Source of the DNA: a virus
Strand: one strand, 5' to 3'
Virus record (IMG/VR): IMGVR_UViG_3300021437_000012
Span: 1-64,000 of that record
Length of the DNA stretch: 64,000 nucleotides
Shown: piece after piece, positions 16,033-30,529 of the stretch
Position numbering within the stretch: position 1 is the stretch's first letter
Layout of the letters: the number at the start of each line of letters is the position of its first letter
The notes under the pieces: generated by a model
Seen by the model: the letters and a program-made list of their open reading frames with translations, nothing else
Database searches by the model: none
What the model was told of the DNA's origin: nothing
Position numbers and translations under genes: made by a program

Positions 16033-16181
16033 GGGGTCTTCGCCCCGCAGTGCAAGCTGGATTTGTTTTTGACCGCGAAGGCAAACAAGTTCCTATCTTT
16101 GAATGTCGTAATCAGCGACAGTGTGGGTTAGCTGATAAGATAGGCGCTCCTCCTGTTGTAGAGGATGTGTCTACGCGATGA
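15993..16181 (+). CDS. Small zinc-binding-like protein
   Basis: A 62-residue protein starting at ATG 15993, nine bases behind GAGG; in-frame starts further left lack this signal. It contains CQWCGRALGG and later FECRNQRQCG, giving a four-Cys set. It overlaps the membrane protein gene by 40 bases and the portal gene by four. Function unknown. Confidence 0.5.
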   Translation: MDAPLCQWCGRALGGLRPAVQAGFVFDREGKQVPIFECRNQRQCGLADKIGAPPVVEDVSTR

Positions 16182-17680
16182 GCATGTCATTGCTTCCTTC
16201 GCTTTATCGATCTATTAAGCCTGTCTCTCTTTTACCACCCCCATCGGATTACGTAGAAAAAGCTTCTACTGTAATGGCCGCAGTTGCACAAGCGGCAGTT
16301 TATGAGACTGGACCTTTGGGCCTCGCACAGCCCGAAGAGTTCCTTAAGTTTATGCGCGTTTTCTCTAAACAACCCACCGTGTATCGATGTGTGACTGTTA
16401 TTGCAAATGCGCTTGCTTCAGTAAATTTGAAGTTCTACGAAGTTAAGGAAAATACGGATGACCGCAAAGAATTGCCTTTCAGTCATCCCTTAATACAGTT
16501 ATTCAGAAAACCTAATCCTCTCATGACTGGGCATGAGTTAAAACTGCATTGGGGGTTGAGCTTAGAGTTAACAGGCAACGCTTACTGGGAAATTGCGGTA
16601 GGCGTTAACGAACATACTGGCGAAGAGAAGTTAGAACTATGGCCTATTAATCCGGGTAATACACGAATTGTGCCTGATAGATTTCGTGGTGTGCGTGGGT
16701 ATATTTACACCATTAATCGCAAACCTATTCCGCTGCCCATTAAGAAGGTTTTTCATACGCGATACATAAATCCTAATCACGAATTTTATGGCATCGCGCC
16801 TATGGTTTCTGCGTCTCGTGCACTAGATGCAGAAGACCTTTTGATGCGACATGCAAATGCGTTGCTTAAGAATTCTGCGCGTCCGTCCGGCATTCTCATG
16901 ATTGATGGTGATTTGACCGGGCCGCAGCAAGAGCGCCTACGGACTGAATGGGAACAGTTATACCAAGGCGCGGACAACGCTGGAAGGACTGCCATCGTTT
17001 CGCGTGGTAAATCCTACACAACTATCACAATGACCCCTGAGCAGATTCAATTGATCGAAACTCGTCAATGGCACCGGGATGAGTTAATGGTTGCTTACGG
17101 ACTGTATCCAATCTTCTTCGGTATTCTCGAACGTGCGACATTAGAGAATGCTGAAATGCAATGGAAGATGTTTTGGAAGACGACGATGGAGCCTAAGTTA
17201 GCGATGTTGGAAGACCAGATTACTGATTCACTGCTTCCGCGCTTTGGAATTCATAACGTCGTCGCTGAATTTGACCGCACTGAATTGGACGCTTTCAAAG
17301 ATGAAGCGCGCGAAGAAATGCTTAGTCTATTACCTGCGTTGGACCGTGGCGTTATTACGATCAACGAAATTCGTAAAGATACTTTGAAGAAACCTCCGCA
17401 ACCGTGGGGCGCTAAGCCTTGGATGTCTTCAGGATTGGTGCAGCTTGGTGCTGATAACGCAATGCCCGCGCCAACGAGTCTGCTGCAAGGCGAAAGTGGG
17501 CAGACTACGCCTAATGCACCAAAATCTGAAGCATCGTCTAAACTTACTTCTTCTATGGGTGGAGCAAGTGCTGCAATCAGTGCACTTGATATGCACGCGG
17601 CGTTTACTGGCACCGCATCGGCAGCGGAATCTACAGCTATCGCGTCTTCAGGCGCCAGTGGTGCGGAGTCAGGGCCTTAA
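16178..17680 (+). CDS. HK97-type portal protein
   Basis: A 500-residue portal, the dodecameric ring through which DNA enters and leaves the capsid. Family features are the VYRCVTVIANALASVNLKFY helix-strand near residue 68, PLIQLFRKPNPLMTG, the LTGNAYWEI strand, YYG-type EFYGIAPMVSASRAL and the long clip/stem region with ETRQWHRDELMVAYGLYP. The last 90 residues are Ala/Ser/Gly rich, low in complexity and probably disordered. It begins a head gene cluster that overlaps the previous gene by four bases. The order terminase, small genes, portal, cargo genes, minor head, protease, capsid fits an HK97-like head assembly pathway. Confidence 0.92.
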   Translation: MSMSLLPSLYRSIKPVSLLPPPSDYVEKASTVMAAVAQAAVYETGPLGLAQPEEFLKFMRVFSKQPTVYRCVTVIANALASVNLKFYEVKENTDDRKELPFSHPLIQLFRKPNPLMTGHELKLHWGLSLELTGNAYWEIAVGVNEHTGEEKLELWPINPGNTRIVPDRFRGVRGYIYTINRKPIPLPIKKVFHTRYINPNHEFYGIAPMVSASRALDAEDLLMRHANALLKNSARPSGILMIDGDLTGPQQERLRTEWEQLYQGADNAGRTAIVSRGKSYTTITMTPEQIQLIETRQWHRDELMVAYGLYPIFFGILERATLENAEMQWKMFWKTTMEPKLAMLEDQITDSLLPRFGIHNVVAEFDRTELDAFKDEAREEMLSLLPALDRGVITINEIRKDTLKKPPQPWGAKPWMSSGLVQLGADNAMPAPTSLLQGESGQTTPNAPKSEASSKLTSSMGGASAAISALDMHAAFTGTASAAESTAIASSGASGAESGP

Positions 17681-19044
17681 TGAATTTTCTGTTGGTCGAT
17701 GCAGTATCTAAGATTGACCCTCAGACTAAGTATGTAGAAATTCCTTCAGACCCCCGTTGTCCGTTCGACTATATTATTGGTACACGGGACGGTCGAAGAA
17801 TTGGCTGTGATGTGAGGCTTCAGTATGTGGGTGTACGTGTAAAGTCCATAGACCTTACATTAGCTGCGCAAGATCGTCGTATTGAGTACGCGCGGGAAAA
17901 TAAATTGCGTGCTCGTATTGTGGTCATGGAATTTGATCAGGCGAAATTAGTACTCAGAGTATACCGCTTCGATGGTGGTGTGCAGGCCGTATCAAAAGAT
18001 CAAATGACTTATTGCGGCGATGTGAGCTTGCAAGAAAAGATCGTCGCGCGTTCCTTCGATGTGCGTACTGCGAAAGGCGACCAGCTTACGTGGTTGCGCA
18101 ATGGGCTTCTGAAATTGAAAGGCGGTAGAGGATCGGGGAATTATGGGCACGCCGGCCGTCCCGGCGAAGTTGGCGGGTCAAGCGGCGAAGGTGGATTTTC
18201 ACATAAGAACTATCATCAGGCTGTCCATGATGGCACTAAATGGACGTTGGCTGACGGTAGTCCGCTACCCGCTCATTTGGAAAAAGTTCGCATTCCGCCT
18301 GCGTGGAGATTTGTTTCAGTCGCGAAAGATCCAAATGCTGCTTTGTTAGTGCGCGGTGTGGATAGTAAAGATCGTGTACAGTCGATCTATAGTGCTACAT
18401 ATGCAGGACAACAGGCAGCAGCGAAGTTTGAACGGACTAAAGAACTACTTTCAAAGCTTGAACAGGTGCGTAAGGACAACCAGGAGAATTTCAATTCACG
18501 TGATCCTAAGACGCGCGATGCTGCCATCGTGACTGAGTTAATCGCGGCAACAGGAGTTCGGCCTGGAAGCGATAAGAATACTGGTGGTGAGAAGCAGGCG
18601 TATGGTGCAACTACCTTACTTGGTAAGCATGTTGTGAAAGACGGCGGTTCTGTGCGGCTGCAATTCACTGGTAAGAAGGGCGTTGATTTAGATATCGAAG
18701 TTCCTTCAGGGAAAGTTGCGGATATTATTCAGCAACGAGCGAAAGAGGTGGGATCTAACGGTCGTCTTTTTAGTATTACCGATTCTGAATTACGTGATTA
18801 TGTAGCTGATCAGGCCGGTGATGGTTTTCATCCAAAGGATTTGCGCACTGCACGTGGGACTTCTGAGGCGCTGCGTACTGTAAAAGATATACCTATACCT
18901 AAGAACGCGAAAGAATATAAGAAAGCAGTGCGTGAGGTTGCGAAACGGGTGAGTAAGGTATTGGGCAATACGCCTACGGTTGCGTTACAATCTTATATAG
19001 ACCCTCACGTTTTTGCGAAGTGGAGAGAAGCAGCCAATGCCTAA
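17680..19044 (+). CDS. Topoisomerase IB domain protein carrying the GSGNFGH peptide
   Basis: A 454-residue protein. Residues about 200-454 form a complete bacterial/poxvirus-like type IB topoisomerase: RIPPAWRFV opening, R294 in GVRPGS, K332 in FTGKKG, R389 in DLRTARGT and the nucleophile Y439 in LQSYIDP. Such enzymes relax supercoils through a 3'-phosphotyrosine. Residues 1-130 are an unrecognised alpha/beta domain. Between them lies the peptide KGG...GSGNYGH...GRPGEVGGS (residues 147-167), shared with two neighbouring proteins. Sitting between the portal and capsid genes rather than among replication genes suggests a virion-associated enzyme, possibly managing DNA topology on packaging or entry; that is inference. 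All catalytic residues are present, so activity is expected. Confidence 0.85.
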   Translation: MNFLLVDAVSKIDPQTKYVEIPSDPRCPFDYIIGTRDGRRIGCDVRLQYVGVRVKSIDLTLAAQDRRIEYARENKLRARIVVMEFDQAKLVLRVYRFDGGVQAVSKDQMTYCGDVSLQEKIVARSFDVRTAKGDQLTWLRNGLLKLKGGRGSGNYGHAGRPGEVGGSSGEGGFSHKNYHQAVHDGTKWTLADGSPLPAHLEKVRIPPAWRFVSVAKDPNAALLVRGVDSKDRVQSIYSATYAGQQAAAKFERTKELLSKLEQVRKDNQENFNSRDPKTRDAAIVTELIAATGVRPGSDKNTGGEKQAYGATTLLGKHVVKDGGSVRLQFTGKKGVDLDIEVPSGKVADIIQQRAKEVGSNGRLFSITDSELRDYVADQAGDGFHPKDLRTARGTSEALRTVKDIPIPKNAKEYKKAVREVAKRVSKVLGNTPTVALQSYIDPHVFAKWREAANA

Positions 19045-20230
19045 CGACCAAATTGATGCGGATGTATATGTAGGGTCAGCAGGAAATGTCGTTGAGGATT
19101 GGCGCACCGTTCTCAACAGCGACGAAGATCCGGATGATGAAGAATTAGCGCATACGCCTGATGATGTTATCGCGGCGTTGGGGTTTGATCCGCTAGACTT
19201 TGATACTGAAAACGACGGTATTCAAACTGTAACCAAAGGTGGCGCGGGTTCGGGTAATTTTGGCCATGCGGGTAGGCCCGGAGAAGTTGGGGGAAGTAGT
19301 GCAGATGTCACTATTTCTCATGACGTAGCTATTTCAGCAAAACCCGTTGTGGCATCGGCCTCCTCTAAAGTAGGCGTACCAGCTAGTTCGGTGCCTACTA
19401 AAGTTCCCCGCATTGCGAATTTACCTAAAGAGTTAGCTGCTGCACAAGAGAGATTCGCGACTAAGTATGAATCGAATCCGCAAGGTGCGTACGATGAATA
19501 CTACAAAGCTGCAATGACTCATCCTACGGAGCCCGCGGTATTTAACGCTGACAACGCAAAGGCGATGTCGGAAGACTATCGTAATACGGGCTCGTTAGAA
19601 TCTCGTGCGCAGTATAATGTCGCAGTTCACGCAACAGCAGACGCAATCGCCAAGGGTGCATTTCTCAAGAGACTTGACGAAATTGCAAAAATGCCCGTAG
19701 ACCAGCGCAATATACTCGTTACGTCAGGTGGCGTTGGTGCAGGTAAGTCTTCAGGGCTCCCTTTTATTCCTAAAAGTGTCGGGTTCAATGCAGTTTGGGA
19801 TTCAACTGGTGAGCTAAACTCTACTGAGAATGAATGGGTGCAGAAAGAAGCGGAGAAGCGCGGTATCGATGTAACGCACCTTTTCGTACATGCCGATCCG
19901 CTAACCGTATGGCCTCGTGTCATTGAGCGCGGAATTAAAACTGGGCGTATGGTAGATGCTACTTTATTTGCAGAATCTTACAATGATGGTGCGCATAACT
20001 TCGCATCGTTTAATGAAGCTCAAATAAATAACCCGCGTGCGCATTTTTACTTTGTGGACAATTCAGGTAAGCCTGAAGATCGTAAGGCATTATCGGCGTT
20101 TCCTTCACAGGCACTTAAGGTGCGGAAAGAAGAGTTGAGGGCCTACGCGCAGCAAAAGTTACGTGAATCAAACGCACCAGATTGGGTGAAAAAGTATGGC
20201 GACATCGGAAAAGATATCTGGAAAGACTGA
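19037..20230 (+). CDS. Zeta-toxin-like P-loop kinase carrying the GSGNFGH peptide
   Basis: A 397-residue protein, start ATG 19037, overlapping the topoisomerase stop by eight bases. An acidic N-terminus (residues 1-65) leads into the shared peptide (67-87), a Ser/Ala-rich linker, and then a P-loop domain with Walker A GGVGAGKSS (231-239), preceded by RNILVTS. The surrounding pattern (DAIAKGAFLKRLDEIAKMP before the P-loop, and VWPRVIERGIKTGRMV after it) resembles zeta-type kinases, which phosphorylate UDP-N-acetylglucosamine or other small substrates. No upstream epsilon-type antitoxin is visible; a 59-residue helical protein overlaps its 3' end. In this head gene setting a kinase delivered with the DNA is a plausible but unproven role. 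Confidence 0.7.
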   Translation: MPNDQIDADVYVGSAGNVVEDWRTVLNSDEDPDDEELAHTPDDVIAALGFDPLDFDTENDGIQTVTKGGAGSGNFGHAGRPGEVGGSSADVTISHDVAISAKPVVASASSKVGVPASSVPTKVPRIANLPKELAAAQERFATKYESNPQGAYDEYYKAAMTHPTEPAVFNADNAKAMSEDYRNTGSLESRAQYNVAVHATADAIAKGAFLKRLDEIAKMPVDQRNILVTSGGVGAGKSSGLPFIPKSVGFNAVWDSTGELNSTENEWVQKEAEKRGIDVTHLFVHADPLTVWPRVIERGIKTGRMVDATLFAESYNDGAHNFASFNEAQINNPRAHFYFVDNSGKPEDRKALSAFPSQALKVRKEELRAYAQQKLRESNAPDWVKKYGDIGKDIWKD

Positions 20231-20375
20231 CGTGCCCGAATGGCTTCAGGCTTATATCGACGGTCTTAAGTGGGAGGCCGAAAATAAAGATGAAGCTATT
20301 GCAAAGGAAGTTGCCGCCGTTGAGGCTAATTTGGAGCGCGCTGGTATGAAGCGGGTAGAGGATACAAAGAAGTGA
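20196..20375 (+). CDS. Tiny helical acidic protein overlapping the kinase gene
   Basis: A 59-residue protein from ATG 20196 to TGA 20375, starting inside the kinase gene in another frame. It reads MATSEKISGKTDVPEWLQAY and then a continuous amphipathic helix rich in Glu, Lys and Ala. A later GTG at 20232 is an alternative start. Stop and next start overlap (GTGA). It could be a small chaperone or a kinase-binding immunity protein; this is only suggested by overlap and helical nature. Confidence 0.5.
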   Translation: MATSEKISGKTDVPEWLQAYIDGLKWEAENKDEAIAKEVAAVEANLERAGMKRVEDTKK

Positions 20376-20737
20376 TTCAGTATAAAGGCGCAGATATTTG
20401 TACAGTAGAGGAGTTTATGGGACTTCTTCAGGCTGTACGTGTGGTCGGCAAACAGATTCCGTATATTGCGAAGTTGGGTGTCGATACACCGAAGGAAGTT
20501 CATTTGCTTGACGAACTTACAGGCATAATTCGAGATGGACGATTGAATGAGGATATACGTGTCATTGCAAGGAAAGCGTACCATCGTGTGCGCAATGCGG
20601 GTGGGACTACGCAGAGTGTAGCTAAGGTGTACAATGTAGCAGAAGTGGAGAAGGTTTACTTGGGCGACGAGTGGGACGCTGACGATTATGTGGTGAAGAG
20701 TGGGCGTGTTAAGGTTAAAGAAGGGGGAAGCATTTAA
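20372..20737 (+). CDS. Hypothetical protein in head module
   Basis: A 121-residue protein from GTG 20372, coupled to the previous tiny gene. Helical first half (ICTVEEFMGLLQAVRVVGKQ) and a C-terminal segment with VYNVAEVEKVYLGDEWDADD. No family recognised. It lies in a run of four small genes between the kinase-like and the ADP-ribosyltransferase-like genes. Confidence 0.55.
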   Translation: MIQYKGADICTVEEFMGLLQAVRVVGKQIPYIAKLGVDTPKEVHLLDELTGIIRDGRLNEDIRVIARKAYHRVRNAGGTTQSVAKVYNVAEVEKVYLGDEWDADDYVVKSGRVKVKEGGSI

Positions 20738-20877
20738 TGTCGGAGCAAGAACAGATACCGCCAGCTAAAATCACCGATGTCTATTTGACATTTATTTCCC
20801 CTGATGCAACGGACGATGAAATTAACGCTTTTATTGAAGGCATACTAGGTGAGGACGATGAAGACGGCAATCGATGA
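20737..20877 (+). CDS. Tiny acidic protein
   Basis: A 46-residue protein (ATG 20737 to TGA 20877), its start overlapping the preceding stop as TAATG, with a good AGGGGGA sequence about ten bases upstream. It begins MSEQEQIPPAKITDVYLTFI and ends in a run of acidic residues. Not recognised. Confidence 0.5.
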   Translation: MSEQEQIPPAKITDVYLTFISPDATDDEINAFIEGILGEDDEDGNR

Positions 20878-21019
20878 ACGGCAGAAATTCTTAAATGAAC
20901 AGATGGCGGTATTGGCTACACTGGACAATATTAAGAATTTGTTGGTGGAGGACTTACGGAAAGCGGGACAAGAGATGGAAGCAACTAAGTTAGAAAAAGA
21001 GTGGCAAGAACTTGGCTGA
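20858..21019 (+). CDS. Tiny coiled-coil protein
   Basis: A 53-residue protein (ATG 20858 to TGA 21019) overlapping both neighbours. It begins MKTAIDERQKFLNEQMAVLA and is predicted to be one long helix with heptad spacing of Leu/Met. A GAGG lies directly upstream. Likely a small oligomeric or partner-binding protein; not recognised. Confidence 0.5.
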   Translation: MKTAIDERQKFLNEQMAVLATLDNIKNLLVEDLRKAGQEMEATKLEKEWQELG

Positions 21020-23627
21020 TTTATCGTTTCTTCAGGCTAGTTTAATTAAGCTTAAGGGTGGTTCGGGCAGTGGTAACTTTGGGCATTCAGGTAGGCCCGG
21101 AGAAGTAGGTGGGTCAAGTTCGAGTGGAGAATCGTCGCCACATGTGCGTGCGTTGCGAAATCTCGCTGCACGAGTGCCTGTATTACGTGGAGAGTTAGAC
21201 CCTAGAGCAAATGCGGACAAATTAGTTAACCAAGCAAAAGTAAGTAGGTACGGGTATTCAAGTCTTAACCCTGCGAGCTTACAAGATTGGCAAGCAGAAG
21301 TTAATAAGCAGTTTGAAGAACTGAAAGCTCAACCACTTATTCATGGAGCTTCTATTCCTTTATTACAAGAGATTGACAAAAATGGGTTGAAATCTAATAG
21401 GCTTGTAAATGGTGTGGCGCAAACAAAATACAACAAACTTATGGAAACTGTAACTAAATTACAAGTACTGCGAGATAAAGGTATACTTTCATCGACGCAG
21501 TATCATAAATATATAGCTGACATGACACAGGTGAAACAGCAGTTAGAGCTACAAGCTGCCGCTGGCTCTACATATGAAAAGGATCGTAACGCTGGGTTAG
21601 ATCAATTTGTATTTATGTCTCATGGTAGCGCAAATCCTTACGGTGATGTTAAGGTTGTAATTGATAATTCGGTGCTTGAATCACCGAAGACTTTCGCTAC
21701 GCCGAAAGACATCGCTCAGATGTATACTGACTTTGATCCACCACATGCTTATGCGGATAAAACTCAAGAGGAATATCGAAAGAGTGTAGTCAACGATGGT
21801 GGATACTACGAAGCCGCAGCAGCAGAGCGGGTTAGAAGTCATGCCGATGAGCATGGTTCATTTGAAGTTAAATCAGCGGATGTAATACCGCCCGATAAGA
21901 TACTAGGTTATGTAGCGCCTGTAAACGCCGAATTGCCTAAATTAAATCATCCGGTAATTACCTACTCGCCTAAAGTATACGGTAACGTTGACATAGGCGC
22001 TGATTTTACCGTATTGGATTTCCCTAATGGTACAAAGTTAAATGAATGGAATCTACGCCGTGAGATATACAAATTAATGCAGTCTGGTGAATATAAGAAG
22101 TACCTCGGACGCGGTGCAGCCCGGAAAGCAGCGTATGACGCAGGTAAGCGGTATCACTTTGGTAGGCCGACTTCTGACACTGTGGAAGAAGACCCGAAAA
22201 ATGCTTTTCTTGATGTGGCGTTGATCAAGTTAAAGGGGGGTGCGGGTAGTGGTAACTTCGGGCATGAAGGACGGCCTGGTGAGGTTGGTGGGTCTAGTGT
22301 GGGCGGCGGGCGCAGTCGTGCGGCGTTAGCAAAGTTGAAGGAACTTCGACCGGAGGCGATTAAGAAGATTGATGAAATAGCACAACATACTAAAATTGGT
22401 GATACATGGGAGCAACTCGATTTAGGGCAACAGCGTGATGCTGAAGAACGCTTTACGCAATTTAGTAAGGGGGACATACAGAGCATTATATACGGCAATC
22501 TGCACCATATGTCCGATAAGGAAGTTGTCGGACTAAAAACTAATCGGTTAGCACTACACGCGGCAGAATCAGAAACTCGTGGCATGTCTGAGAAGTTTGA
22601 TATTGACAGTAAAAAATTAGTGACTTTACGCGCAGGTCTTTCGTCAAAAACTGATTTATCTACGTTTGATTTTTCTAGCTTGTTAAGAAATCCTGATGTA
22701 CTTAGTGATGAGGAAAAAGTAGCCTTTAATAAACAACTACAAAAAGCAGCCGGCGCAGAAAAGTTGTCAGCAGACCAGTATATTTCTGGACAATCTGAAG
22801 ATTACTTTAGTACTGTGCGCAGTAATTTAGAAGTTGATTTAACGTACGACGTATTAGAGTCTAAATGGAATGCTAAGACCGACGAAGAAAAAATGAAGTA
22901 TTACAGTGGGTCAAGTACAGAACTTCTTCGTTCGACGGTAGTTGCTCGCGCCGCAGAACTCAATCCAATGTCCAAAGACTGGCTTGCTAAATCTAACGAT
23001 AATTTATGGGGTACATGGAAGTCTGCGAGTCAATCTCCTGATGCTCTTATTATTCAGAACGCCGCTATGCACACATTTGGGGTTAATCCGCCGTATAAGT
23101 GGGCTGATAGGGTTGAGGATTTTGACAAAGAGTACGGACCTTTGTATGGGCATAGTGCACCAGATGTGATTAAAGAGAAATCTGCACTTCTCAAAGCCCA
23201 ATGGGAGACTACGCAATGGCTGCTGAAAGATAAACCCGTACCAGACTATCTCTACCGTGCTGTATACGTAGATAAAAGTAACTTCGAGTCTACAATTAGT
23301 GAAGCAGAAGCAGGGCTTGACATGACGGACCACTATGCTCAAGCCTTAGCTGAACGGCGACTCGAAGGAACTAAATTAGATAACTTACAACTCATGCGTA
23401 ATCCGATGAATTCTTTTACTTCCGATCTAAGCGTCGCTAATACTTGGGATGGCGTCGGCGAAATACCCAAAGGTGCAGTGCGCGTTGTAATTCGTGCTAA
23501 GATACCTAAAGAGGCGATTTTGTCTACACCTGAATTTGGGGATAATGCATACAATGAATCAGAGTACGTTGTGTTGGGAACGCCTTGGGAGTGGGAGGCG
23601 TTTTATGATAAGGCGCCAAGTGCATAA
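21012..23627 (+). CDS. Two-part head-module protein with C-terminal ADP-ribosyltransferase-like domain
   Basis: An 871-residue protein from a TTG start at 21012, overlapping the previous stop. It reads as two units, each opening with a LIKLKGG and GSGNFGH...GRPGEVGGS peptide (residues 15-35 and 408-428). The first unit has a conserved-looking region LDQFVFMSHGSANPYGDVKV and later a GYYEAAAAERV segment; its fold is not recognised. The second ends with the R-S-E signature of ADP-ribosyltransferases: YLYRAVYV (R near 749), MNSFTSDLS (near 801) and NESEYVVLG (E849 and E851). ARTs occur in phage virions, for example T4 Alt, where they are injected to modify host RNA polymerase, so an ejected effector is likely. 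It may be a fusion of two once separate genes. Confidence 0.7.
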   Translation: MADLSFLQASLIKLKGGSGSGNFGHSGRPGEVGGSSSSGESSPHVRALRNLAARVPVLRGELDPRANADKLVNQAKVSRYGYSSLNPASLQDWQAEVNKQFEELKAQPLIHGASIPLLQEIDKNGLKSNRLVNGVAQTKYNKLMETVTKLQVLRDKGILSSTQYHKYIADMTQVKQQLELQAAAGSTYEKDRNAGLDQFVFMSHGSANPYGDVKVVIDNSVLESPKTFATPKDIAQMYTDFDPPHAYADKTQEEYRKSVVNDGGYYEAAAAERVRSHADEHGSFEVKSADVIPPDKILGYVAPVNAELPKLNHPVITYSPKVYGNVDIGADFTVLDFPNGTKLNEWNLRREIYKLMQSGEYKKYLGRGAARKAAYDAGKRYHFGRPTSDTVEEDPKNAFLDVALIKLKGGAGSGNFGHEGRPGEVGGSSVGGGRSRAALAKLKELRPEAIKKIDEIAQHTKIGDTWEQLDLGQQRDAEERFTQFSKGDIQSIIYGNLHHMSDKEVVGLKTNRLALHAAESETRGMSEKFDIDSKKLVTLRAGLSSKTDLSTFDFSSLLRNPDVLSDEEKVAFNKQLQKAAGAEKLSADQYISGQSEDYFSTVRSNLEVDLTYDVLESKWNAKTDEEKMKYYSGSSTELLRSTVVARAAELNPMSKDWLAKSNDNLWGTWKSASQSPDALIIQNAAMHTFGVNPPYKWADRVEDFDKEYGPLYGHSAPDVIKEKSALLKAQWETTQWLLKDKPVPDYLYRAVYVDKSNFESTISEAEAGLDMTDHYAQALAERRLEGTKLDNLQLMRNPMNSFTSDLSVANTWDGVGEIPKGAVRVVIRAKIPKEAILSTPEFGDNAYNESEYVVLGTPWEWEAFYDKAPSA

Positions 23628-24500
23628 ATGCCCATAATCATTGACCTAGGCGACGAAACGCAGACAGGGCCGGGAAACTGGTTGACGCATTGGGTTAACC
23701 AGCAGAAGGCTAAAGCGAAGCCTGTCATACAAAATCCGCACCACAAACTTACTTCGGCAACTATCGCCAAAGCACAACGTAAATCCAATGTAGACCGTTT
23801 ACTCGAATCCATCGACCTTATGCCGGATGATGTTACGTACTCTCACTTTGCAGACCTATTCGAGTCTGTAATAAAACAGTCCGCGGCACGCGCTATACGC
23901 AATATAAACCTCGATATTAGTGTTGATGACATTGACGAAGATATGCTGCGACAAATGGCGGAAGACCGCGTCGATAATTTCTTCGCCCAAATCAATGCTA
24001 CCACTGAGAACCAAATTCGTCGCGCGGTGGAAGACGGTATCAGTCAAGACGATTCCACGGATGAGCTAATTTCGCGCATTCAGGATGTCATTGAATCTCG
24101 GGCTAATAATGCGTGGAACATGGCGCAAACTCAGACTAATGGGCTTTCAAACTTTGGTGCGTTGTCAGCATATGATGAAGCAGGGGTTGAAGCTAATGGT
24201 TGGGGGACAATGCAAGATGAACGTGTACGGGATTCGCACGCTGAAATTGAAGGTGAAGAAGTTCCTGTTGGTGCGCAATTTTCAATTGGTGTTGCTTATC
24301 CTGGCGACCCTAGTGGAGATATTTCAGAAATTGCTAATTGTCGTTGCTTTCTGTACCCCGTAACCAAGTCCCGTGGCAAGTTGTACACTGCTGAAATTGA
24401 GAAGTCACATGACGATGCGTTGGATGTTAATACGCGGCGTATTGCGATTGCGGTAAAAAAGGTGATTCGTGGACAGATCAAGTTGATTCGATTGCGCTGA
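23628..24500 (+). CDS. Minor head protein, SPP1 gp7 / Mu F family
   Basis: A 290-residue head morphogenesis protein. The diagnostic C-terminal region is present: WGTMQDERVRDSHAEIEGEE followed by YPGDPSG and EIANCRCFLYP. Proteins of this family sit near the portal, act in capsid assembly and influence DNA ejection. The central part (about residues 60-170) is helical with DNFFAQINATTENQIRRAVE. It starts at ATG 23628 immediately after the previous stop, consistent with a translated-together head operon. Confidence 0.88.
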   Translation: MPIIIDLGDETQTGPGNWLTHWVNQQKAKAKPVIQNPHHKLTSATIAKAQRKSNVDRLLESIDLMPDDVTYSHFADLFESVIKQSAARAIRNINLDISVDDIDEDMLRQMAEDRVDNFFAQINATTENQIRRAVEDGISQDDSTDELISRIQDVIESRANNAWNMAQTQTNGLSNFGALSAYDEAGVEANGWGTMQDERVRDSHAEIEGEEVPVGAQFSIGVAYPGDPSGDISEIANCRCFLYPVTKSRGKLYTAEIEKSHDDALDVNTRRIAIAVKKVIRGQIKLIRLR

Positions 24501-24540
24501 TGTTGTATTCTGGTAGTGCGGCGGTCAGCGCACCCGCCGC
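24483..24540 (+). promoter_or_regulatory. Weak promoter and hairpin before the protease gene
   Basis: TTGATT (24483-24488), 17 bp, TATTCT (24506-24511) make a possible promoter. Directly after it GCGGCGG (24518-24524) pairs with CCGCCGC (24534-24540) over a 9-base loop in what would be the 5' leader of the protease-capsid message. The hairpin could stabilise the abundant capsid message or attenuate read-through. Confidence 0.35.
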
Positions 24541-24555
24541 TTTGGAGCACCTAGA

Positions 24556-26484
24556 ATGTCCGTCTCTCTAGCTTATAAGGAATTCGACGCTGCGGCGGTC
24601 GCGAAATTCGCGCCGAGTCCTAACTCCAATGATAGCCGCGTTTTCCGCAACGTCCCTATCACTTCTGAGAATCAGGATAGGGACGGCGATGTAGTGCGCG
24701 TAGATGGTATCAAGCTGGACAATTTCCTGCGTAATCCCGTGCTGCTTTTCGTTCACAATAAGTTGCCTGGAATGCCCGTGTTCCCGGTTGGTAAAGTGTT
24801 GTCATTCAAGAAGGGTGCGCTAGCCGATGGAACTAAGGCGCTATTTGCCGATATTCAGTTTGCCAACATTGGCAATGAATTCATCGATACGCTTTACAAG
24901 TTATGGCAAGAGGGTTACATGTCGGCAACGTCGATTGGTTTTAAACCGATCAAGGCGCGATCGATTGACCAACGTGGACGCCCGCTTACCGATTTAGTTC
25001 CTGCTGGAAACGTTACGATGGATGCCGACATTGCTTCTAAGTTTCAGGCGATGATGGGTGGTCCTCGCGAATATCTCGAATCCGAGCTTGTTGAACTTTC
25101 AGTGGTGCCTGTCGGTTCTAATACTGACGCGGTATATCAGCGGTTCTTCACGCCTACGGTTATGAAGTCCTTTGAGGCGCTTGTCCATAAGACGATGGAT
25201 ACTCAGAATGGACTTGTCGAGGCGGGTAACGTTGCTGAAAAAAAGTGCGTTGGAACACACTGCCCCGACTGTGCGACCAAGGATGCTCACGGTTCTGCGC
25301 ACTGCGAAAAATGCACTGCACCCGATGTTATAAAAGAAGTCACTTGCGGCGGCGCGCACTGCGAAGGATGTGTGAACAAATCGCACGAGACTACGCATTG
25401 TGAAATGTGCGCGACCAAAGAAGTGACTAAAGGCGGCGCTGGCTCCGGTAACTTCGGCCATTCCGGTTCCGACTCTTGGGACGCTGCCTCGGAAGTTAAG
25501 AGCGCATCTACCGACGATCTAAATAAAATGTGCGCGTGGGTCGCAGACAAGCCCGACGCCGACCTAACAAAGTCGGATTACAAACTCCCGCACCATGAGC
25601 GCGCTGGGTACAAAACATCGTGGCCTGGAGTTAAAGCTGCGATGGGCGCACTTCTCGGTGCGCGTGGCGGCGTCGATATTCCGCAAGCGGATAAAGACGC
25701 CGTGTACAACCATTTGGCAAAACATTATGCAGAGTTTGACAAAAAGCCACCGGAAAACAAAGACTACACTCCTGCGCAGTTGAAGCGACTTTTCTCGAAT
25801 TCTTCACCTTCGGAAGTGGCGCGCGTTCTCAAGTCTCTCACCGTCGAAGAATGCCCGAATTGCAAAACCATCGCTACTGCATCCGTTGAGTGTGGTGGAT
25901 TCGTACCACACACTTCTGAGGCTGGTGAACTTTGCAACGGCCCCGATGAATTCGGCGCGCGTGGTGTGCCGGTTAAAACGCTTGTGCGTTCACTTGCACA
26001 TTCCCACTTCAAAGACTTCGCAGGCGAGCGCGAGAAGTTACTTTTAACTGGTGCAGCGAGTCTTACTTACAAAGAATCAGCTACTCAGTTAATAGCGCGG
26101 GCTGCACAATTTGTGAATTCGCTCGCACATAAGATGGAAATTGAACCTACTCCAATGGCTGATAACGACGGTGATGAGGATAAGGGTAACTTCACCGACG
26201 AAGATTATGCTACACTAACAGAGTCGATAGAAACTTTGAATCAGGTATTGGACGCTCTCCGCGTCGTCCAAACCCGGGCCAGTCAGACGCGGGTAACGCA
26301 ACCCTCGGGTGGCGACAATCAAGCGATGAACCAATTAAACGCAGAAACTCCAAATAAATCGCTATCGTCGTCCGAAATCGCCAAGTCGGTTGCGTCTAAT
26401 CCCGCACTTCTTAGTGCTGTGACTACACTGACTGAACGACTGACGACGGTAGCCAACGAGGCTACCAGTGGCAGACGAGCTTAA
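24556..26484 (+). CDS. Prohead protease with Cys/His repeat and C-terminal extension
   Basis: A 642-residue protein. Residues 1-210 are an HK97-type prohead serine protease: ENQDRDGDVVRVDGI, LLFVHNKLPGMPV with the catalytic His, SATSIGFKPI with the Ser, and YLESELVELSVVPVGSN. It matures the capsid by cutting scaffold and capsid precursors. Residues about 230-290 hold four HCxxC units (THCPDC, AHCEKC, AHCEGC, THCEMC) that look like a zinc-binding array. The partial GSGNFGH peptide follows, then a region KSDYKLPHHERAGYK, GALLGARGGVDIP and HLAKHYAEFDKKPPE, known as an appendage in other phage proteases, and a helical, scaffold-like C-terminus. The ribosome binding site GGAG lies eight bases before ATG 24556. 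Confidence 0.88.
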   Translation: MSVSLAYKEFDAAAVAKFAPSPNSNDSRVFRNVPITSENQDRDGDVVRVDGIKLDNFLRNPVLLFVHNKLPGMPVFPVGKVLSFKKGALADGTKALFADIQFANIGNEFIDTLYKLWQEGYMSATSIGFKPIKARSIDQRGRPLTDLVPAGNVTMDADIASKFQAMMGGPREYLESELVELSVVPVGSNTDAVYQRFFTPTVMKSFEALVHKTMDTQNGLVEAGNVAEKKCVGTHCPDCATKDAHGSAHCEKCTAPDVIKEVTCGGAHCEGCVNKSHETTHCEMCATKEVTKGGAGSGNFGHSGSDSWDAASEVKSASTDDLNKMCAWVADKPDADLTKSDYKLPHHERAGYKTSWPGVKAAMGALLGARGGVDIPQADKDAVYNHLAKHYAEFDKKPPENKDYTPAQLKRLFSNSSPSEVARVLKSLTVEECPNCKTIATASVECGGFVPHTSEAGELCNGPDEFGARGVPVKTLVRSLAHSHFKDFAGEREKLLLTGAASLTYKESATQLIARAAQFVNSLAHKMEIEPTPMADNDGDEDKGNFTDEDYATLTESIETLNQVLDALRVVQTRASQTRVTQPSGGDNQAMNQLNAETPNKSLSSSEIAKSVASNPALLSAVTTLTERLTTVANEATSGRRA

Positions 26485-28153
26485 GACTCCCGATCCGGCG
26501 CAGAATCTTGCGGATGCGCTCAACAATCTTGCTACCGTCACTAAGGCGGTAAGCACGCAACCCACCCCTAACGCGACTCCTGCCGAGCAGAAGCCCGTTT
26601 CGACCGAAACCAAAGTCGAGCAGACTCCGGTTCAGGCGTTCAAGTCGTATCTCAATCTCGCAAATCAGCAGCTTGATTTGGCTACTTCGGAAGCCGATAA
26701 GGCTGCAATTCGTGCGGGGTTGAATGACACTCTTACGAAGATCGACGCCGACGTTAAAAAAATGCCGGTGGGTGACTACGTTAAGAAAACCGAATGGGGC
26801 GTTGAGGAAGCGAAGAACTACCTTGCTGAAATTGGGGGCATCCCGAAGACGGAAGTGAAGGGTATTTTTTCAAACCTCGGGGCACAACGTACTGCATCCG
26901 CAGATTCGTGGCGTGCTCAGTTCGGCAACCGTACTCCCCTTGACGTTCTTTTCAAGGGTGCGATGATCCCTGACACTTCCGGTCCTTACGAGAAGGCTAA
27001 GCCTCTTATCGTTAAGGATGACATGCTGGAGCGTGCGCGCGATCTGCACGATCAGGTTTTCGTGTGGATGCTACACAAGCAGGCGCAGAACGGCGGCATG
27101 GGTGTTGACCCGCGTACACAGTGCCGCATTTGGCCTGAGTACGCAAAGGCGATGGAGTACGTTGGTAAGGCGCTGGATACCACCGACACTGCTAACTGGG
27201 TGCCGACTGGGTTCACGACTGACTTACTCGCTCGCTACGATCTTGATCGTAACGTTAGCCGTCAACTGCGTACTTTCCAACAGCCCCGCAACCCCTTTGA
27301 TTATCCCGTCATGGGGGCGCGCACGACCACGTACAAAATCAGTGAACAGACTGCGGATATTGAGTCGGCTACGGCTGTCACGACTTCTGACATGACGCCG
27401 CTGAAAATCACGTTAACACTCGCTTCTCTCGGCGCTCGCACGTCTTGGAGCTACGAGTTAGACGAGGATTCGATCATCGCAATCGCTACTGAGGCCCGCA
27501 ATCAGTTGGGAATCTCGATGGCGTACTCGGAAGAAGACGCGCTTATCAATGGTGATACCACGGGTACTCACCAGGATGCGGACGTTACTTCTTCGAGCGA
27601 TATCCGCAAAATCTGGAAGGGTTTTCGTAAGTACGCGATTCAGCAGTCGTACACCACGGACGGTTCCGCGAAGGTCGTTGAGACGCTGACCGGAATGATC
27701 AAGTCGATGGGTAAGTACGGCGCGCGTCCTGCGGATCTTTTCTGGGTTTGCGCTCCTGGGCTGCGAGCGGACTTCTTGTCCCTTAAGGACACCAACAACA
27801 ATCCTGTAATGATCGGCCTTCCTGTCATGGGCGCGGGTAACAGCCCGATGGTCATGACGTTGGCTGATGTGCCACTTCTTCTCGGATTGCCGTTGGTCGT
27901 TTCTGAGGCTTTCCGCTCGGACTTGAACGCGTCGGGCGTTTTCGACAACACTACCACGTCTAAGACGGGTCTTTTGCTCGTCAACCGCAAGGGTTGGATC
28001 TATAGCTACTCGAATGAGCAGCCGCTTATCGAGTCGCAGCGTTGGATTCGCACCCGGCAGATCGAGATCGTTGCTTCGATGCGGCGTGCGTTCAACCCGA
28101 TCTTCGCCATTGCATCGAACAAGACGGTTTGGTACGATTACAACATGGCCTAA
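26468..28153 (+). CDS. Major capsid protein, HK97 fold
   Basis: A 561-residue capsid protein starting with GTG 26468, overlapping the protease gene end by 17 bases. The first ~165 residues are helical, charged and scaffold-like (ADALNNLATVTKAV, AIRAGLNDTLTKIDADVKK) and are probably a delta domain removed by the protease. The mature domain has typical features of the family: NWVPTGFTTDLLARYDLD, a TTYKISEQTADIESATAVT strand, a LGARTSWSYELDEDSII helix and LINGDTTGTH. Codon use is more C-ending than in neighbouring genes, as expected for the most abundant virion protein. A terminator follows 31 bases after the stop. Confidence 0.92.
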   Translation: MADELKTPDPAQNLADALNNLATVTKAVSTQPTPNATPAEQKPVSTETKVEQTPVQAFKSYLNLANQQLDLATSEADKAAIRAGLNDTLTKIDADVKKMPVGDYVKKTEWGVEEAKNYLAEIGGIPKTEVKGIFSNLGAQRTASADSWRAQFGNRTPLDVLFKGAMIPDTSGPYEKAKPLIVKDDMLERARDLHDQVFVWMLHKQAQNGGMGVDPRTQCRIWPEYAKAMEYVGKALDTTDTANWVPTGFTTDLLARYDLDRNVSRQLRTFQQPRNPFDYPVMGARTTTYKISEQTADIESATAVTTSDMTPLKITLTLASLGARTSWSYELDEDSIIAIATEARNQLGISMAYSEEDALINGDTTGTHQDADVTSSSDIRKIWKGFRKYAIQQSYTTDGSAKVVETLTGMIKSMGKYGARPADLFWVCAPGLRADFLSLKDTNNNPVMIGLPVMGAGNSPMVMTLADVPLLLGLPLVVSEAFRSDLNASGVFDNTTTSKTGLLLVNRKGWIYSYSNEQPLIESQRWIRTRQIEIVASMRRAFNPIFAIASNKTVWYDYNMA

Positions 28154-28448: not shown

Positions 28449-28477
28449 TTGACAACTGAGTTATGCAGGAGTATAGT
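28449..28477 (+). promoter_or_regulatory. Promoter at the head of the glycan island
   Basis: TTGACA (28449-28454), 17 bp, TATAGT (28472-28477), a consensus sigma70 site. The -10 box directly abuts ATG 28478 and ends nine bases before ATG 28487, so the message would be leaderless or nearly so. The same spacing recurs at 39054-39082. Confidence 0.75.
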
Positions 28478-28499
28478 ATGGTTACGATGAATGAGTCAA
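28470..28499 (-). promoter_or_regulatory. Divergent promoter for the small leftward gene
   Basis: Read leftward: TTGACT (28494-28499), 18 bp, TATACT (28470-28475). It overlaps the rightward promoter almost completely, so the two directions should compete for polymerase. Confidence 0.55.
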
Positions 28500-29200
28500 C
28501 GCTAGTTTGTGTAAGCGGGTTTAATGATGGCGCACAAATGTTGCGCGAATGTGTACAATCCGCCAACGCACTTGGTTTTCATGTTCTGTATATGGACGGT
28601 GCATACCCGCTGTTCTTAGATGATCCCGACGAAGACGTGTGGACTTCAGACGAAGCCTTACAAAAAGCGCTAGTTGATCTTCACGTTGATGAAGGTGATC
28701 ACGAATTTCGGTGGACAAGCGAAGCTGATAAGAAAAATGAAGTTCTGCGTCAGGCCGAAACACTGCGCACACCTAGCGGTGGTTGGTACAAGTGGGCACT
28801 GTTTCTCGACGTAGACGAAAGACTAGAGGGTACATACTACAATTTTACACCAGAGGACCACTACAAATTAGGTGATCCTACTGAGTTATGGTGGATCAAC
28901 ATGTATCGCTACGATGTTCATTTACCCCATAATCCGCAAGGTTTCCCGATGCCGAGAATGTTGCGCTTGCATCCGTCCCTGCACTTCAAACCACCGCGTG
29001 ATTACGACGTGTATCGCGAGGAGAAACAAATCGCTTTCATGGACGGCGCTACTATACCGTCTTATTGCGAAGGACATTATGCGCTGTTAGATCCTGGCAT
29101 TCTTCGTATTCGGCACGAGCGCAATAAACGCACCGATGAGCGGCGCAATAAAGCGGGGCGTTATTATCAACGGCAACGTGGTGATGTGAATGTTAGATAA
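28478..29200 (+). CDS. Glycosyltransferase-like protein, paralogue of 39093-39803
   Basis: About 240 residues. Opening VCVSGFNDGAQMLRECVQ and YMDGAYPLFLDDPDED, then a DxD-type WALFLDVDERLEG, suggest a GT-A nucleotide-sugar binding fold, and the C-terminal LRIRHERNKRTDERR is basic. The protein at 39093-39803 has the same layout (VCVSGF, SANALG, DGAY, FLDCDERLE, RIRHE), so the two are paralogues placed near opposite ends of the island. ATG 28478 follows AGGAG, but ATG 28487 is the first available codon if the overlapping promoter is used, and it aligns better with the paralogue's start. Sugar and acceptor are unknown. Confidence 0.7.
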   Translation: MVTMNESTLVCVSGFNDGAQMLRECVQSANALGFHVLYMDGAYPLFLDDPDEDVWTSDEALQKALVDLHVDEGDHEFRWTSEADKKNEVLRQAETLRTPSGGWYKWALFLDVDERLEGTYYNFTPEDHYKLGDPTELWWINMYRYDVHLPHNPQGFPMPRMLRLHPSLHFKPPRDYDVYREEKQIAFMDGATIPSYCEGHYALLDPGILRIRHERNKRTDERRNKAGRYYQRQRGDVNVR

Positions 29201-29552
29201 CCAACTTCAAGTAACTAAGATGGGTTTTAAGAATGCTCGTAGCTACGAAGTTGGTGATCTTCCTTGGCTTGAAGATTTATTCGACTTAGCGAGGAAGCAG
29301 ACGAACTTCTTACCTTATGCCCACAATTTTCCGGTCAAGACTTCGTGGAGCTTATCTGAGCTTGGGGCACATAACTTACTAACTAAAGACATAGTTAATG
29401 AGGTAGCTAACACACTCGCGCGTGAAGAAGAGGACATGATTATCAATGGTGATCGTGGCGGACTCCTTGTGCGTAACTGGAAGATGCCTGAAATCAAATC
29501 CAATGGCAGCCTCATCGGTAACTATTCCGTAGGATTTAGGAGCAACACATGA
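29190..29552 (+). CDS. Hypothetical protein in glycan island
   Basis: A 120-residue protein overlapping the previous gene by 11 bases and the epimerase gene by four. Contains SYEVGDLPWLEDLFDLARKQ, a helical DIVNEVANTLAREEEDMII and a C-terminal NGDRGGLLVRNWKMPE. No domain is recognised. Its place in the gapless island suggests a partner of the neighbouring enzymes. Confidence 0.5.
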   Translation: MLDNQLQVTKMGFKNARSYEVGDLPWLEDLFDLARKQTNFLPYAHNFPVKTSWSLSELGAHNLLTKDIVNEVANTLAREEEDMIINGDRGGLLVRNWKMPEIKSNGSLIGNYSVGFRSNT

Positions 29553-30529
29553 AATTCCAAAAACAGAACATTCTCATTACTGGTGCGGGTGGTTTTCTTG
29601 GTTGGCATCTTTCTGAATACTTGCACGCGCAAGGTCACAACGTAACTGGTATCGATCTACACACTGCCAAGTATGCTCCTCATTCGTCTACTCAATTGTT
29701 AATTCGAGACGTAAGAAATCCTGGATGGGTGCCTGGAGCTAAATACGACGTAGTGTACGCGCTAGCAGCAGATATGGGCGGTATGGGGTACATCTCGCAA
29801 CACTCCGCGGAGATTCTTGCCAACAACCTTAGAGTGAATCTCAGTACAGTAGAGGCTGTACGCTTGCATAAAATTTCGCGCGTTGTGTTTGCATCTTCCG
29901 CGTGTGTCTACAACGAATTGAAACAAGATGGGGCGGACTCCAAACCGCTCACTGAAGACGATGCGTACCCCGCACTGCCCGATACAGAATATGGTTGGGA
30001 GAAGCTAATCTCGGAACGTCTGTATCAAGCCTACGCAAAAGCTTACGGATTCACTGCGCATATCGTAAGGTTTCACAACGTCTTCGGACCTTACGGATCG
30101 TGGAATGATGGGCGTGAGAAAGCACCAGCCGCTATTTGTCGGAAAGTCGCGGAGCATAAAGCAAAACGTACTAAAGAGATTGAGGTTTGGGGTGATGGGC
30201 AGCAACGTCGGTCATTTTTGTATGTGGGTGACTGGCTTAAGGGGTTGCAAAAACTTGTCGATGGTAACATTGTGGGGCCTATCAATCTTGGGTCTGCGGA
30301 TGACGTGTCTATTGCGGAGTTAGTAGCTCAGGTGTGTGAAATTGCAGGTGTAAAAGATCCTGTGATTAAGTTCATCCCTGGACCGCAAGGTGTGCGAGCA
30401 CGTAACTCTGACAATACACTTATTAAGAAGTTAACGGAGTGGGAACCGCCTGCGAATACGTTGAATCGTGGGCTTAAGGTGTTGTACCCTTGGATTGAGG
30501 AGCAAGTATGGAACGTGCGCAAGACTTAA
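29549..30529 (+). CDS. NAD-dependent sugar epimerase, GDP-mannose 3,5-epimerase-like
   Basis: A 326-residue short-chain dehydrogenase/reductase of the extended type. The Rossmann motif GAGGFLG is at about residues 12-18. Features shared with GDP-mannose 3,5-epimerases are ADMGGMGYI, the active-site Cys in ASSACVY, YGWEK with the catalytic Tyr and Lys, RFHNVFGPYGSW, REKAPAA with the second acid/base Lys, and VWGDGQQRRSFLYV. That enzyme makes GDP-L-galactose (and GDP-L-gulose) from GDP-D-mannose. A GDP-sugar product fits the GT11-like transferase at 38154-39050. The alternatives are a related GDP-fucose or CDP-sugar epimerase, but the motif set favours the 3,5-epimerase. Confidence 0.85.
   Translation: MKFQKQNILITGAGGFLGWHLSEYLHAQGHNVTGIDLHTAKYAPHSSTQLLIRDVRNPGWVPGAKYDVVYALAADMGGMGYISQHSAEILANNLRVNLSTVEAVRLHKISRVVFASSACVYNELKQDGADSKPLTEDDAYPALPDTEYGWEKLISERLYQAYAKAYGFTAHIVRFHNVFGPYGSWNDGREKAPAAICRKVAEHKAKRTKEIEVWGDGQQRRSFLYVGDWLKGLQKLVDGNIVGPINLGSADDVSIAELVAQVCEIAGVKDPVIKFIPGPQGVRARNSDNTLIKKLTEWEPPANTLNRGLKVLYPWIEEQVWNVRKT

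Follow-up and report, generated by a model that had tools for sequence, protein, structure and literature searches.

Why would enzymes of unrelated kinds, encoded among the head genes of one virus, carry the same short peptide? The question is raised by the 64,000-nucleotide stretch of viral DNA analysed here (the window; positions 1 to 64,000 of IMG/VR record IMGVR_UViG_3300021437_000012), in which the preliminary description had noted four full copies and one partial copy between positions 18118 and 25467. All five were re-found by coordinates on the plus strand, the full copies as GGxGSGN[FY]GHxGRPGEVGGS. Tag 1 (18118..18180, core 18121-18180; K|GGRGSGNYGHAGRPGEVGGS) is in the topoisomerase IB ORF, where its K is residue 147, N-terminal to the catalytic domain, and where Y replaces F (GSGNYGH). 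Tag 2 (19235..19297, core 19238-19297; K|GGAGSGNFGHAGRPGEVGGS) is in the kinase ORF. The ART-like ORF has two copies: tag 3 (21054..21116, core 21057-21116; K|GGSGSGNFGHSGRPGEVGGS), which follows a 15-aa leader, MADLSFLQASLIKLK, and tag 4 (22233..22295, core 22236-22295; K|GGAGSGNFGHEGRPGEVGGS), which separates the two halves of the protein; all tags other than tag 3 lie deeper in their ORFs. The half tag (25429..25467, core 25432-25461; K|GGAGSGNFGHSG) gives way to unrelated sequence in the protease ORF, and a scan for this form, with serine as TCN only and possibly with the window's own record excluded, found no other case. Lysine directly precedes every one of the five copies. The codons vary from copy to copy, as noted earlier, and the motif had no hits in 200 codon-shuffled windows, compared with five in the actual one.

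The tagged ORFs are bordered upstream by a portal gene (16178..17680, plus strand; Pfam Phage_portal, 7.5e-70) and downstream by the major capsid protein gene (26468..28153, plus strand; Phage_capsid, 2.1e-9), in agreement with the placement given before, and all genes between them are likewise on the plus strand. The topoisomerase IB gene (17680..19044) matches Topoisom_I over the catalytic core (1.1e-23), and relatives with 28-49% identity were found in nine fetched loci, some of which overlap. The kinase gene (19013..20230) begins with TTG at 19013, with an alternative ATG at 19037; its product has no Pfam match, and its AlphaFold model, which has a moderate core and pLDDT <35 in the tag region, matches zeta_1 toxin structures (Foldseek 6eph_B, E 4.6e-9, TM 0.45), so that a zeta-type P-loop kinase fold is predicted for the protein. 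Both enzyme labels of the preliminary description therefore held. A small untagged ORF (20372..20737) separates the kinase gene from that of the two-part, 871-aa ART-like protein (21012..23627, TTG start), for which there was no Pfam match and the AlphaFold model was too poor for use. Motifs of the form R, STS and ExE mark the R-S-E class of ADP-ribosyltransferases, and the R, S and E-x-E residues are invariant across six aligned rows of the C-terminal part. By alignment, the C-terminal half is thus tentatively assigned to this class, and here the ART-like label stood; for the N-terminal half, identity as an ART was not confirmed. Neither the kinase nor the ART protein gave a convincing match in PDB sequence searches, and no relatives of the ART protein were found in phage records. 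The MuF head protein gene (23628..24500; Phage_Mu_F, 1.1e-10) is untagged in the window. The probable head maturation protease gene (24556..26484), which carries the half tag past its protease-like region, is a weak match to PHROG 80 "head maturation protease" (1.6e-7, residues 24-192), which favours the earlier label of prohead protease; no Peptidase_S78 (PF04586) match was found that would place it in the HK97-type (S78) family, and searches of viral contigs and phage records yielded no relatives.

Among viral contigs, 120 stretches or more contain the peptide; across 84,980 prokaryote genomes, 13 stretches do. A tblastn search of 50,697 phage records with the bare peptide gave no match, which says nothing about absence because the low-complexity filter probably masks the peptide; a tagged E-type protein also had no match in the phage records. 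After removal of duplicate contexts and of tags too close to a contig end, 198 tags were analysed. Of 152 ORFs with 120 aa or more, 143 were covered by the Pfam scan (E up to 0.01); nine ORFs, eight long and one short, were outside this batch, with L108 and L120 scanned singly and L113:1-2652 via PHROGs, which was applied to the second ORF batch alone. The carriers are otherwise unrelated and include ARTs, zeta-like kinases, topoisomerase IB, NUDIX, portals, MuF proteins and head proteases. The preliminary description had proposed a search for the motif and held that a location mainly at non-structural loci would count against its idea; the search instead showed, for the 32 of 42 records in which MuF was detected, that 93% of 92 tags have MuF no more than 10 kb away, compared with 51% for a random anchor. 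DUF2213 head-protease domains precede tags in L011, L034 and L043, and DUF2213 was detected in 32 of 66 records, Peptidase_S78 in 3 of 43 and CLP_protease in 1 of 43. Many ORFs hold multiple tags. The tag is not required by every such enzyme, since homologues of the window kinase in L141 and L044 are untagged, as is the ORF of the topoisomerase homologue in L157, which has a weak MuF match. A second shared motif, [WF][DN]ExxHPRDxxG[KRQ]F, is sometimes present in the same polypeptides as the tag.

The residue directly before GG (X, position -4) differs between phages, being K, L/A, D, N or E. Among 151 tags of the 45 contigs with at least two tags, agreement in X within a phage is 0.86 vs 0.19 after shuffling (maximum of 1000 shuffles, 0.37), and that at residue -5 is 0.25 vs 0.10. 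X stays nearly constant within phages where the tag flanks and core codons have diverged: X agreement is 0.85 in the 244 within-contig pairs whose flanks are dissimilar, vs 0.17 between contigs. At invariant columns, codon agreement within a contig is close to that expected from codon usage (0.359 vs 0.345, 3754 comparisons), which argues that most copies are not recent duplicates; at X itself, codons agree beyond the expectation (0.673 vs 0.507, 220 comparisons), a point against the reading proposed below. R/K occupies P3 in 31 of 48 L-tags and in all 13 A-tags, compared with 10 of 43 D-tags, 6 of 46 K-tags and 1 of 27 N-tags. In phage G056, X is mixed (Q, Y, H, D) and the capsid site is Y.

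X also recurs near the N-arm of the phage's own capsid protein. Of 36 capsid proteins, 33 were placed in four classes (G060 has no landmark, and G024 and G056 fall in no class), and the own-class pattern was found in 33 of 33 compared with 20 of 99 for off-class patterns and a mean of 14.9 and a maximum of 27 of 33 in 100,000 label shuffles, figures that overstate the strength of the match because the patterns were composed after the alignments had been viewed and were accepted anywhere within 24 residues. Related phages are moreover not independent, as the N-type HK97-like capsids are relatives, with 70% identity in one pair, and all eight D-type capsid proteins show D while five of them match the N pattern too. 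Since the K- and N-type N-arms aligned unreliably in global alignments, their sites were located manually and afterwards put to the pattern test. Only the E-type phages and three of these capsid proteins, which came from a later search, were examined after the patterns had been written, and the three (G097, G101 and G102) fitted N, N and K. Outside the test are D-type G029, in which the ORF at the capsid position (L166:3063-4148) is of another family, and K-type G025, in which a 337-aa ORF of unproven capsid identity follows the protease (L146:14465-15475). In a stricter test of one capsid family in 18 phages, agreement at the site column is 0.60, the highest of 338 columns (permutation p 0.0025, uncorrected). 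Its five misses are G060 (tags H, L, L; site N), G032 (L; N), G021 (L; A), G087 (A; L) and G024 (H, N; P). G078, whose capsid protein was taken as identical to that of G060, was omitted, and G073 stood for the A-type G077, G082, G083 and G086, which have the same capsid N-terminus. In the window, the predicted maturation site of the capsid protein, K|A in EYVGK|ALDTTDTANWVPTG (27167..27172, plus strand), has the P1 residue of the tags, and the protein may be cut there. In HK97, gp4 cuts the capsid protein after Lys 103, a maturation with which the K-type phages agree in having K at their predicted capsid site. GSGNFGH itself was not seen at the capsid-protein sites of tagged phages.

The two T4-type phages, which have a Gp23 capsid, provide a comparison with a described protease. 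According to PMC9026906, L/I-X-E is the sequence after which T4 gp21 cuts, and in these two phages X is E in all nine tags and [LI]xE precedes eight of them, the ninth being FFE; the count over all tags gave [LI]xE before 4 of 198. YLTE|G near the N-terminus is the sole [LI]xE[AGS] site in each T4-type capsid ORF, and a Peptidase_S77 gene was found in one of the two phages. Two more contigs with E before GG (ITE, ARE) have no Gp23 match. Leaders ahead of N-terminal tags are more amphipathic than background (0.33 vs 0.25, p 4e-5, 68 leaders), with a median length of 27 aa from the first Met for the 63 N-terminal tags with an upstream Met; the stretches before internal tags score 0.28 (p 0.056, n=125), and these internal tags, 125 of the 193 measured, do not fit a short N-terminal leader.

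Based on these results, we propose that the tag has two parts, and that X|GG is probably a cut site of the phage's own prohead protease, a reading that rests on sequence comparison. X, with P3 in some lineages, would be the P1 residue of this protease. Cutting at the junction inside the procapsid would release each cargo domain, either from a short leader at the N-terminus or from a structural carrier, i.e., portal, MuF or protease. The second part, GGxGSGN[FWY]GHxGRPGxxGGS, would then become the new N-terminus of each cargo domain and would serve in cargo loading, retention or ejection, not in cleavage. In the window, X would be K and the cargoes the topoisomerase IB, the zeta-like kinase and the ART-like protein. 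The preliminary description had suggested incorporation into, or processing within, the procapsid; the latter is well supported by the sequence, given that X is phage-specific and matches the phage's own capsid N-arm, while uptake into the virion and delivery along with the DNA are suggested by gene context and the T4 precedent. On this view, the tagged enzymes would be cleaved, carried in the virion and injected. To give the entire peptide one role seems too simple, as X|GG and GSGNFGH appear to do different jobs.

This division of labour is where the closest alternative differs: the junction would be cut, and the whole peptide, GSGNFGH included, would merely be a recognition or docking element of the protease. 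Conservation on the prime side of a cleavage site would suit an exosite, and these phages have protease-related domains from three Pfam families; the core nevertheless stays invariant where X shifts by lineage, and the capsid sites of the same phages do without GSGNFGH, which is hence not needed for cutting there. We regard this alternative as possible but rather unlikely. Near-invariance across differing proteases, together with absence from the capsid sites, makes a separate cargo role of the second part the most likely one, less certain than cutting at X|GG.

Cleavage could also be left out of the explanation. A pure packaging tag would bind scaffold, portal or capsid, with X touching a phage-specific partner, and it would account for tagged genes that adjoin portal and MuF genes and for tags on enzymes without a detected structural domain, in the window and elsewhere. 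It is improbable, however, in that X is the residue near the capsid N-arm and, in the T4-type phages, that of the reported gp21 site, and in that tags are also found within portal and protease polypeptides, whose expected presence in the procapsid would make a loading tag superfluous. A self-cleaving peptide, acting via Asn or His without the capsid protease, might be read from the invariant N and H, both of which were fixed by the search pattern; it leaves the change of X by phage and the capsid match unexplained and is very improbable. We consider equally remote a conserved linker for swapping effector modules between phages by recombination. Diverse domains do follow the same peptide, and multi-tag ORFs are many, but X would then not be the most phage-coherent position; the core codon test (0.359 vs 0.345) sets this role aside, since codons about as different as usage allows leave little shared DNA for recombination.

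The proposed tag may be compared with known head-effector systems. The T4 internal proteins IPI-III and Alt, injected from the head, are reported to carry a capsid targeting sequence (CTS) and to be processed by gp21 (PMC9026906); the tagged proteins resemble them in the short leader of the N-terminal tags, in the proposed prohead-protease cut at a short site and, in the two T4-type phages only, in the L/I-X-E site itself. They differ in the 20-residue peptide that follows the proposed cut in phages with unrelated capsids and differing P1 residues, for which no counterpart is described in the parts of the T4 accounts cited here, and in tags inside polypeptides with portal, MuF or protease domains. 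Being K-type, the window is not classed with the T4-type CTS, though it would work alike. Phage polyvalent proteins are reported as multi-domain effectors beside virion genes (Iyer et al., 2017; PMC5512222), and phages are reported to package ART/Nudix proteins (PMC9503650); in these accounts effectors are fused to MuF, portal or capsid-processing peptidase. Effector domains likewise lie beside virion genes here, as the window order and MuF proximity indicate, and fusions to portal or MuF are found in L120 (order portal-NUDIX-tag-ART) and in L073, where a single ORF combines a portal, three tags and a sub-threshold MuF match; in the window MuF is a separate gene. The words "linker" and "glycine" are absent from the main text of both papers, and the parts of them cited here mention neither a shared peptide nor a protease-matched junction. 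In MuF polymorphic toxins, the head protein MuF is reported to be joined to variable effectors (PMC5576092), whereas the common element here is the 20-residue peptide, with MuF detected in 10 of 143 scanned tagged ORFs.

With even chances in our estimate, the tag may be a portable cargo code common to unrelated capsid lineages, in which a protease-matched cut exposes an invariant new N-terminus that is read by a common step (loading, retention or passage through portal and tail), with at least one second code, [WF][DN]ExxHPRDxxG[KRQ]F, in parallel. If so, the residue before the tag would report the specificity of the prohead protease and the sequence after it the injected effectors. The tag could then also serve as a label by which foreign proteins are brought into non-T4 phage heads. 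If this is right, a 21-residue string would predict, from raw phage DNA, proteins shipped in the virion and capsid-protease cut sites, the latter even for phages that have never been cultivated, and would allow many injected effectors to be listed, including ARTs, kinases, nuclease-like proteins and possible anti-defence proteins.

The tag (GGxGSGN[FY]GHxGRPGEVGGS) occurs in the window four times in full and once as a half copy, at the places given in the preliminary description. K precedes each copy and codons differ among the copies as claimed, while 200 codon shuffles of the window yielded no copy. The tagged genes lie, as described, between the portal and capsid genes, in an interval that also holds a MuF gene and a probable head protease gene. 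The enzyme labels are also backed: topoisomerase IB by a Pfam match, the zeta-like kinase by an AlphaFold model with a Foldseek match to 6eph_B (E 4.6e-9), and the C-terminal ART part by R, S and ExE conserved in six aligned rows. After the capsid gene, glycosyltransferase-like and NAD-dependent epimerase-like ORFs were read by eye at 28463-30529.

A degenerate pattern for GSGNFGHxGRPG matches at least 120 stretches of viral contigs and only 13 stretches in 84,980 prokaryotic genomes, 10 of the 13 being titled Clostridia, Clostridiales or Lachnospiraceae; the reversed pattern has no match in 42 records chosen for holding the tag. The flanks, which lay outside the pattern, are nearly invariant in the distinct contexts from viral loci: GG at -3/-2 in 203/203, and the closing G-G-S in 203/203, 201/203 and 199/202. 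Outside the tag the proteins are barely alignable (mean column identity 5%). Most of these phages are contigs of uncultured viruses, many of them fragmentary, so the gene lists are incomplete. In the 32 of 42 records where MuF was found (23 over the cut-off; the ten without a match left out), 93% of 92 tags are at most 10 kb from it when distances are measured round the contig, vs. 51% for a random anchor; measured linearly, the values are 90% vs. 43%. GSGNFGH, GNFGH, GRPGEVGGS, SGNFGHAG and the second-tag strings tried were not found in the papers searched, and "linker" and "glycine" are absent from the main text of the two closest surveys (PMC5512222; PMC9503650).

The residue directly before GG (position -4, hereafter X) is characteristic of each phage. 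Its within-phage agreement is 0.86, vs. a null of 0.19 and a highest value of 0.37 in 1000 shuffles, while its neighbor at -5 reaches 0.25 (null 0.10). Elsewhere in the tag, variable positions are likewise more alike within than between phages, though less sharply (e.g., position 13, 0.75 vs. 0.43). Core codons agree within phages only about as codon usage predicts (0.359 vs. 0.345), so it is the peptide, not the DNA, that is kept, as the preliminary description had claimed for the window; at X, codon agreement is somewhat above expectation (0.673 vs. 0.507). X is K, L/A, D or N and more rarely E, H or Q; in 31/48 L-tags and 13/13 A-tags, R or K stands two positions before it. Mixed cases are L with A in some phages, and Q, Y, H and D in one phage.

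The same residues are found near the start of the capsid protein N-arm, the capsid proteins having been located by Pfam, gene order after the protease, or profile. With ↓ marking the proposed cut, K-type capsid proteins have K↓A (EYVGK↓ALDTTDTANWVP in the window), N-type N↓[AS]M (N↓A in G063), D-type D↓[SGAR] and L/A-type Rx[LA]↓. These patterns, written after the alignments were viewed and accepted anywhere within 24 residues, occur in 33/33 classified capsid proteins of their own class (36 tested, four classes) and in 20/99 other-class comparisons; label shuffles gave a mean of 14.9 and at most 27. Three phages from a later search (G097, G101 and G102) fit their own-type pattern. Of the 210 assignments in the HK97-like set (six K-type and four N-type phages), the true one is alone in reaching 10/10. 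Within the L/A capsid family alone, agreement across the 338 columns is highest at the site column (0.60, p 0.0025 uncorrected, 18 phages), with strict-site misses in G060, G032, G021, G087 and G024. The sole N-type phage of this family, G063, carries N in the site column. The capsid matches of L204 and L205 (from G078 and G060) span one in-frame TGA, possibly recoding or a match overrunning the true end. Four N-type stretches (L144, L145, L330 and L331) join a protease-like part, an acidic scaffold-like part and the capsid protein in one ORF of 713-735 aa; the protease-like part was read by eye, and no Peptidase_S78 match was found in G006 or G037.

E precedes GG in four contigs of the scan, two of which are T4-type by their Gp23 capsid protein; Peptidase_S77 and a T4-like portal were found in the one of these two where they were looked for. 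All nine tags of the two T4-type phages have E at X, 8/9 within [LI]xE, and their N-terminal tags follow leaders of ~20 aa. Near the N-terminus of each T4-type capsid ORF lies its only [LI]xE[AGS] site, YLTE↓G. T4 gp21 is described as cutting after L/I-X-E, and T4 internal proteins as bearing targeting leaders (PMC9026906). In the other two E-contigs no Gp23 match was found, and the residues before GG are ITE and ARE. The T4-like portal ORF of G048 (L334:14652-18329) also matches an intein splicing domain and an HNH endonuclease.

Whether carriers of the motif hold diverse enzyme domains, a question raised in the preliminary description, was answered positively by a Pfam scan (E up to 0.01) of 143 tagged ORFs, from 152 of at least 120 aa, where one ORF may match several families. 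Matches included ADPrib_exo_Tox (12 ORFs), Zeta_toxin (4), ART-PolyVal, topoisomerase IB and GNAT (Acetyltransf_1; 3 each) and NUDIX (2). Further matches were portal PF06381 (14) and PF04860 (8), MuF (10), DUF2213 (7), Ntox50 (2), PBECR3 (1) and one weak match each to Acb1 and T7 gp5.9. In a second batch of 72 ORFs, the commonest PHROGs labels include those for portal, head morphogenesis and head maturation protease. DUF2213 is regarded as a head protease, since in L011 the stretch that it matches is also matched by PHROG models of the head maturation protease. Domain orders include portal-NUDIX-tag-ART (L120), portal-NUDIX-tag (L108), portal-tag-tag-weak MuF-tag (L073) and DUF2213-tag (L011, L034 and, with a DUF2213 match slightly short of the Pfam cut-off, L043). 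Where the ORF is not truncated by the end of its contig, at least 74 residues separate GSGN from the stop; the tag is thus followed by a domain instead of closing the protein. Its placement after the protease domain parallels SPN3US gp245, reported to trim N-terminal propeptides off head proteins and to cut away a C-terminal piece of its own (PMC10052503).

A second peptide, [WF][DN]ExxHPRDxxG[KRQ]F with a Gly-rich stretch after it, occurs in at least 120 viral stretches, in the same phages as the first (L009, L155/L060, L156, L157, L223, L301, L308, L314 and others) and together with it in five ORFs. Within-contig agreement of its preceding residues is moderate (-1, 0.41 vs. 0.15; -2, 0.33 vs. 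0.13): L precedes [DE]W in 7/7 copies of two related L-type phages, D or E in D-type phages and K in one L-type phage. The second tag may behave like the first, with preceding residues that are partly phage-specific.

The X↓GG junction is best read as a putative cut site of the prohead protease. Based on the established behavior of T4 and HK97 heads and on the residue match, we infer that the tagged proteins may be packaged and cleaved there. GSGNFGH was not found in the capsid-protein stretches examined, although the residues before the proposed cut are common to both. Some factor other than the protease thus probably recognizes the invariant part, which may function in loading, retention or ejection.
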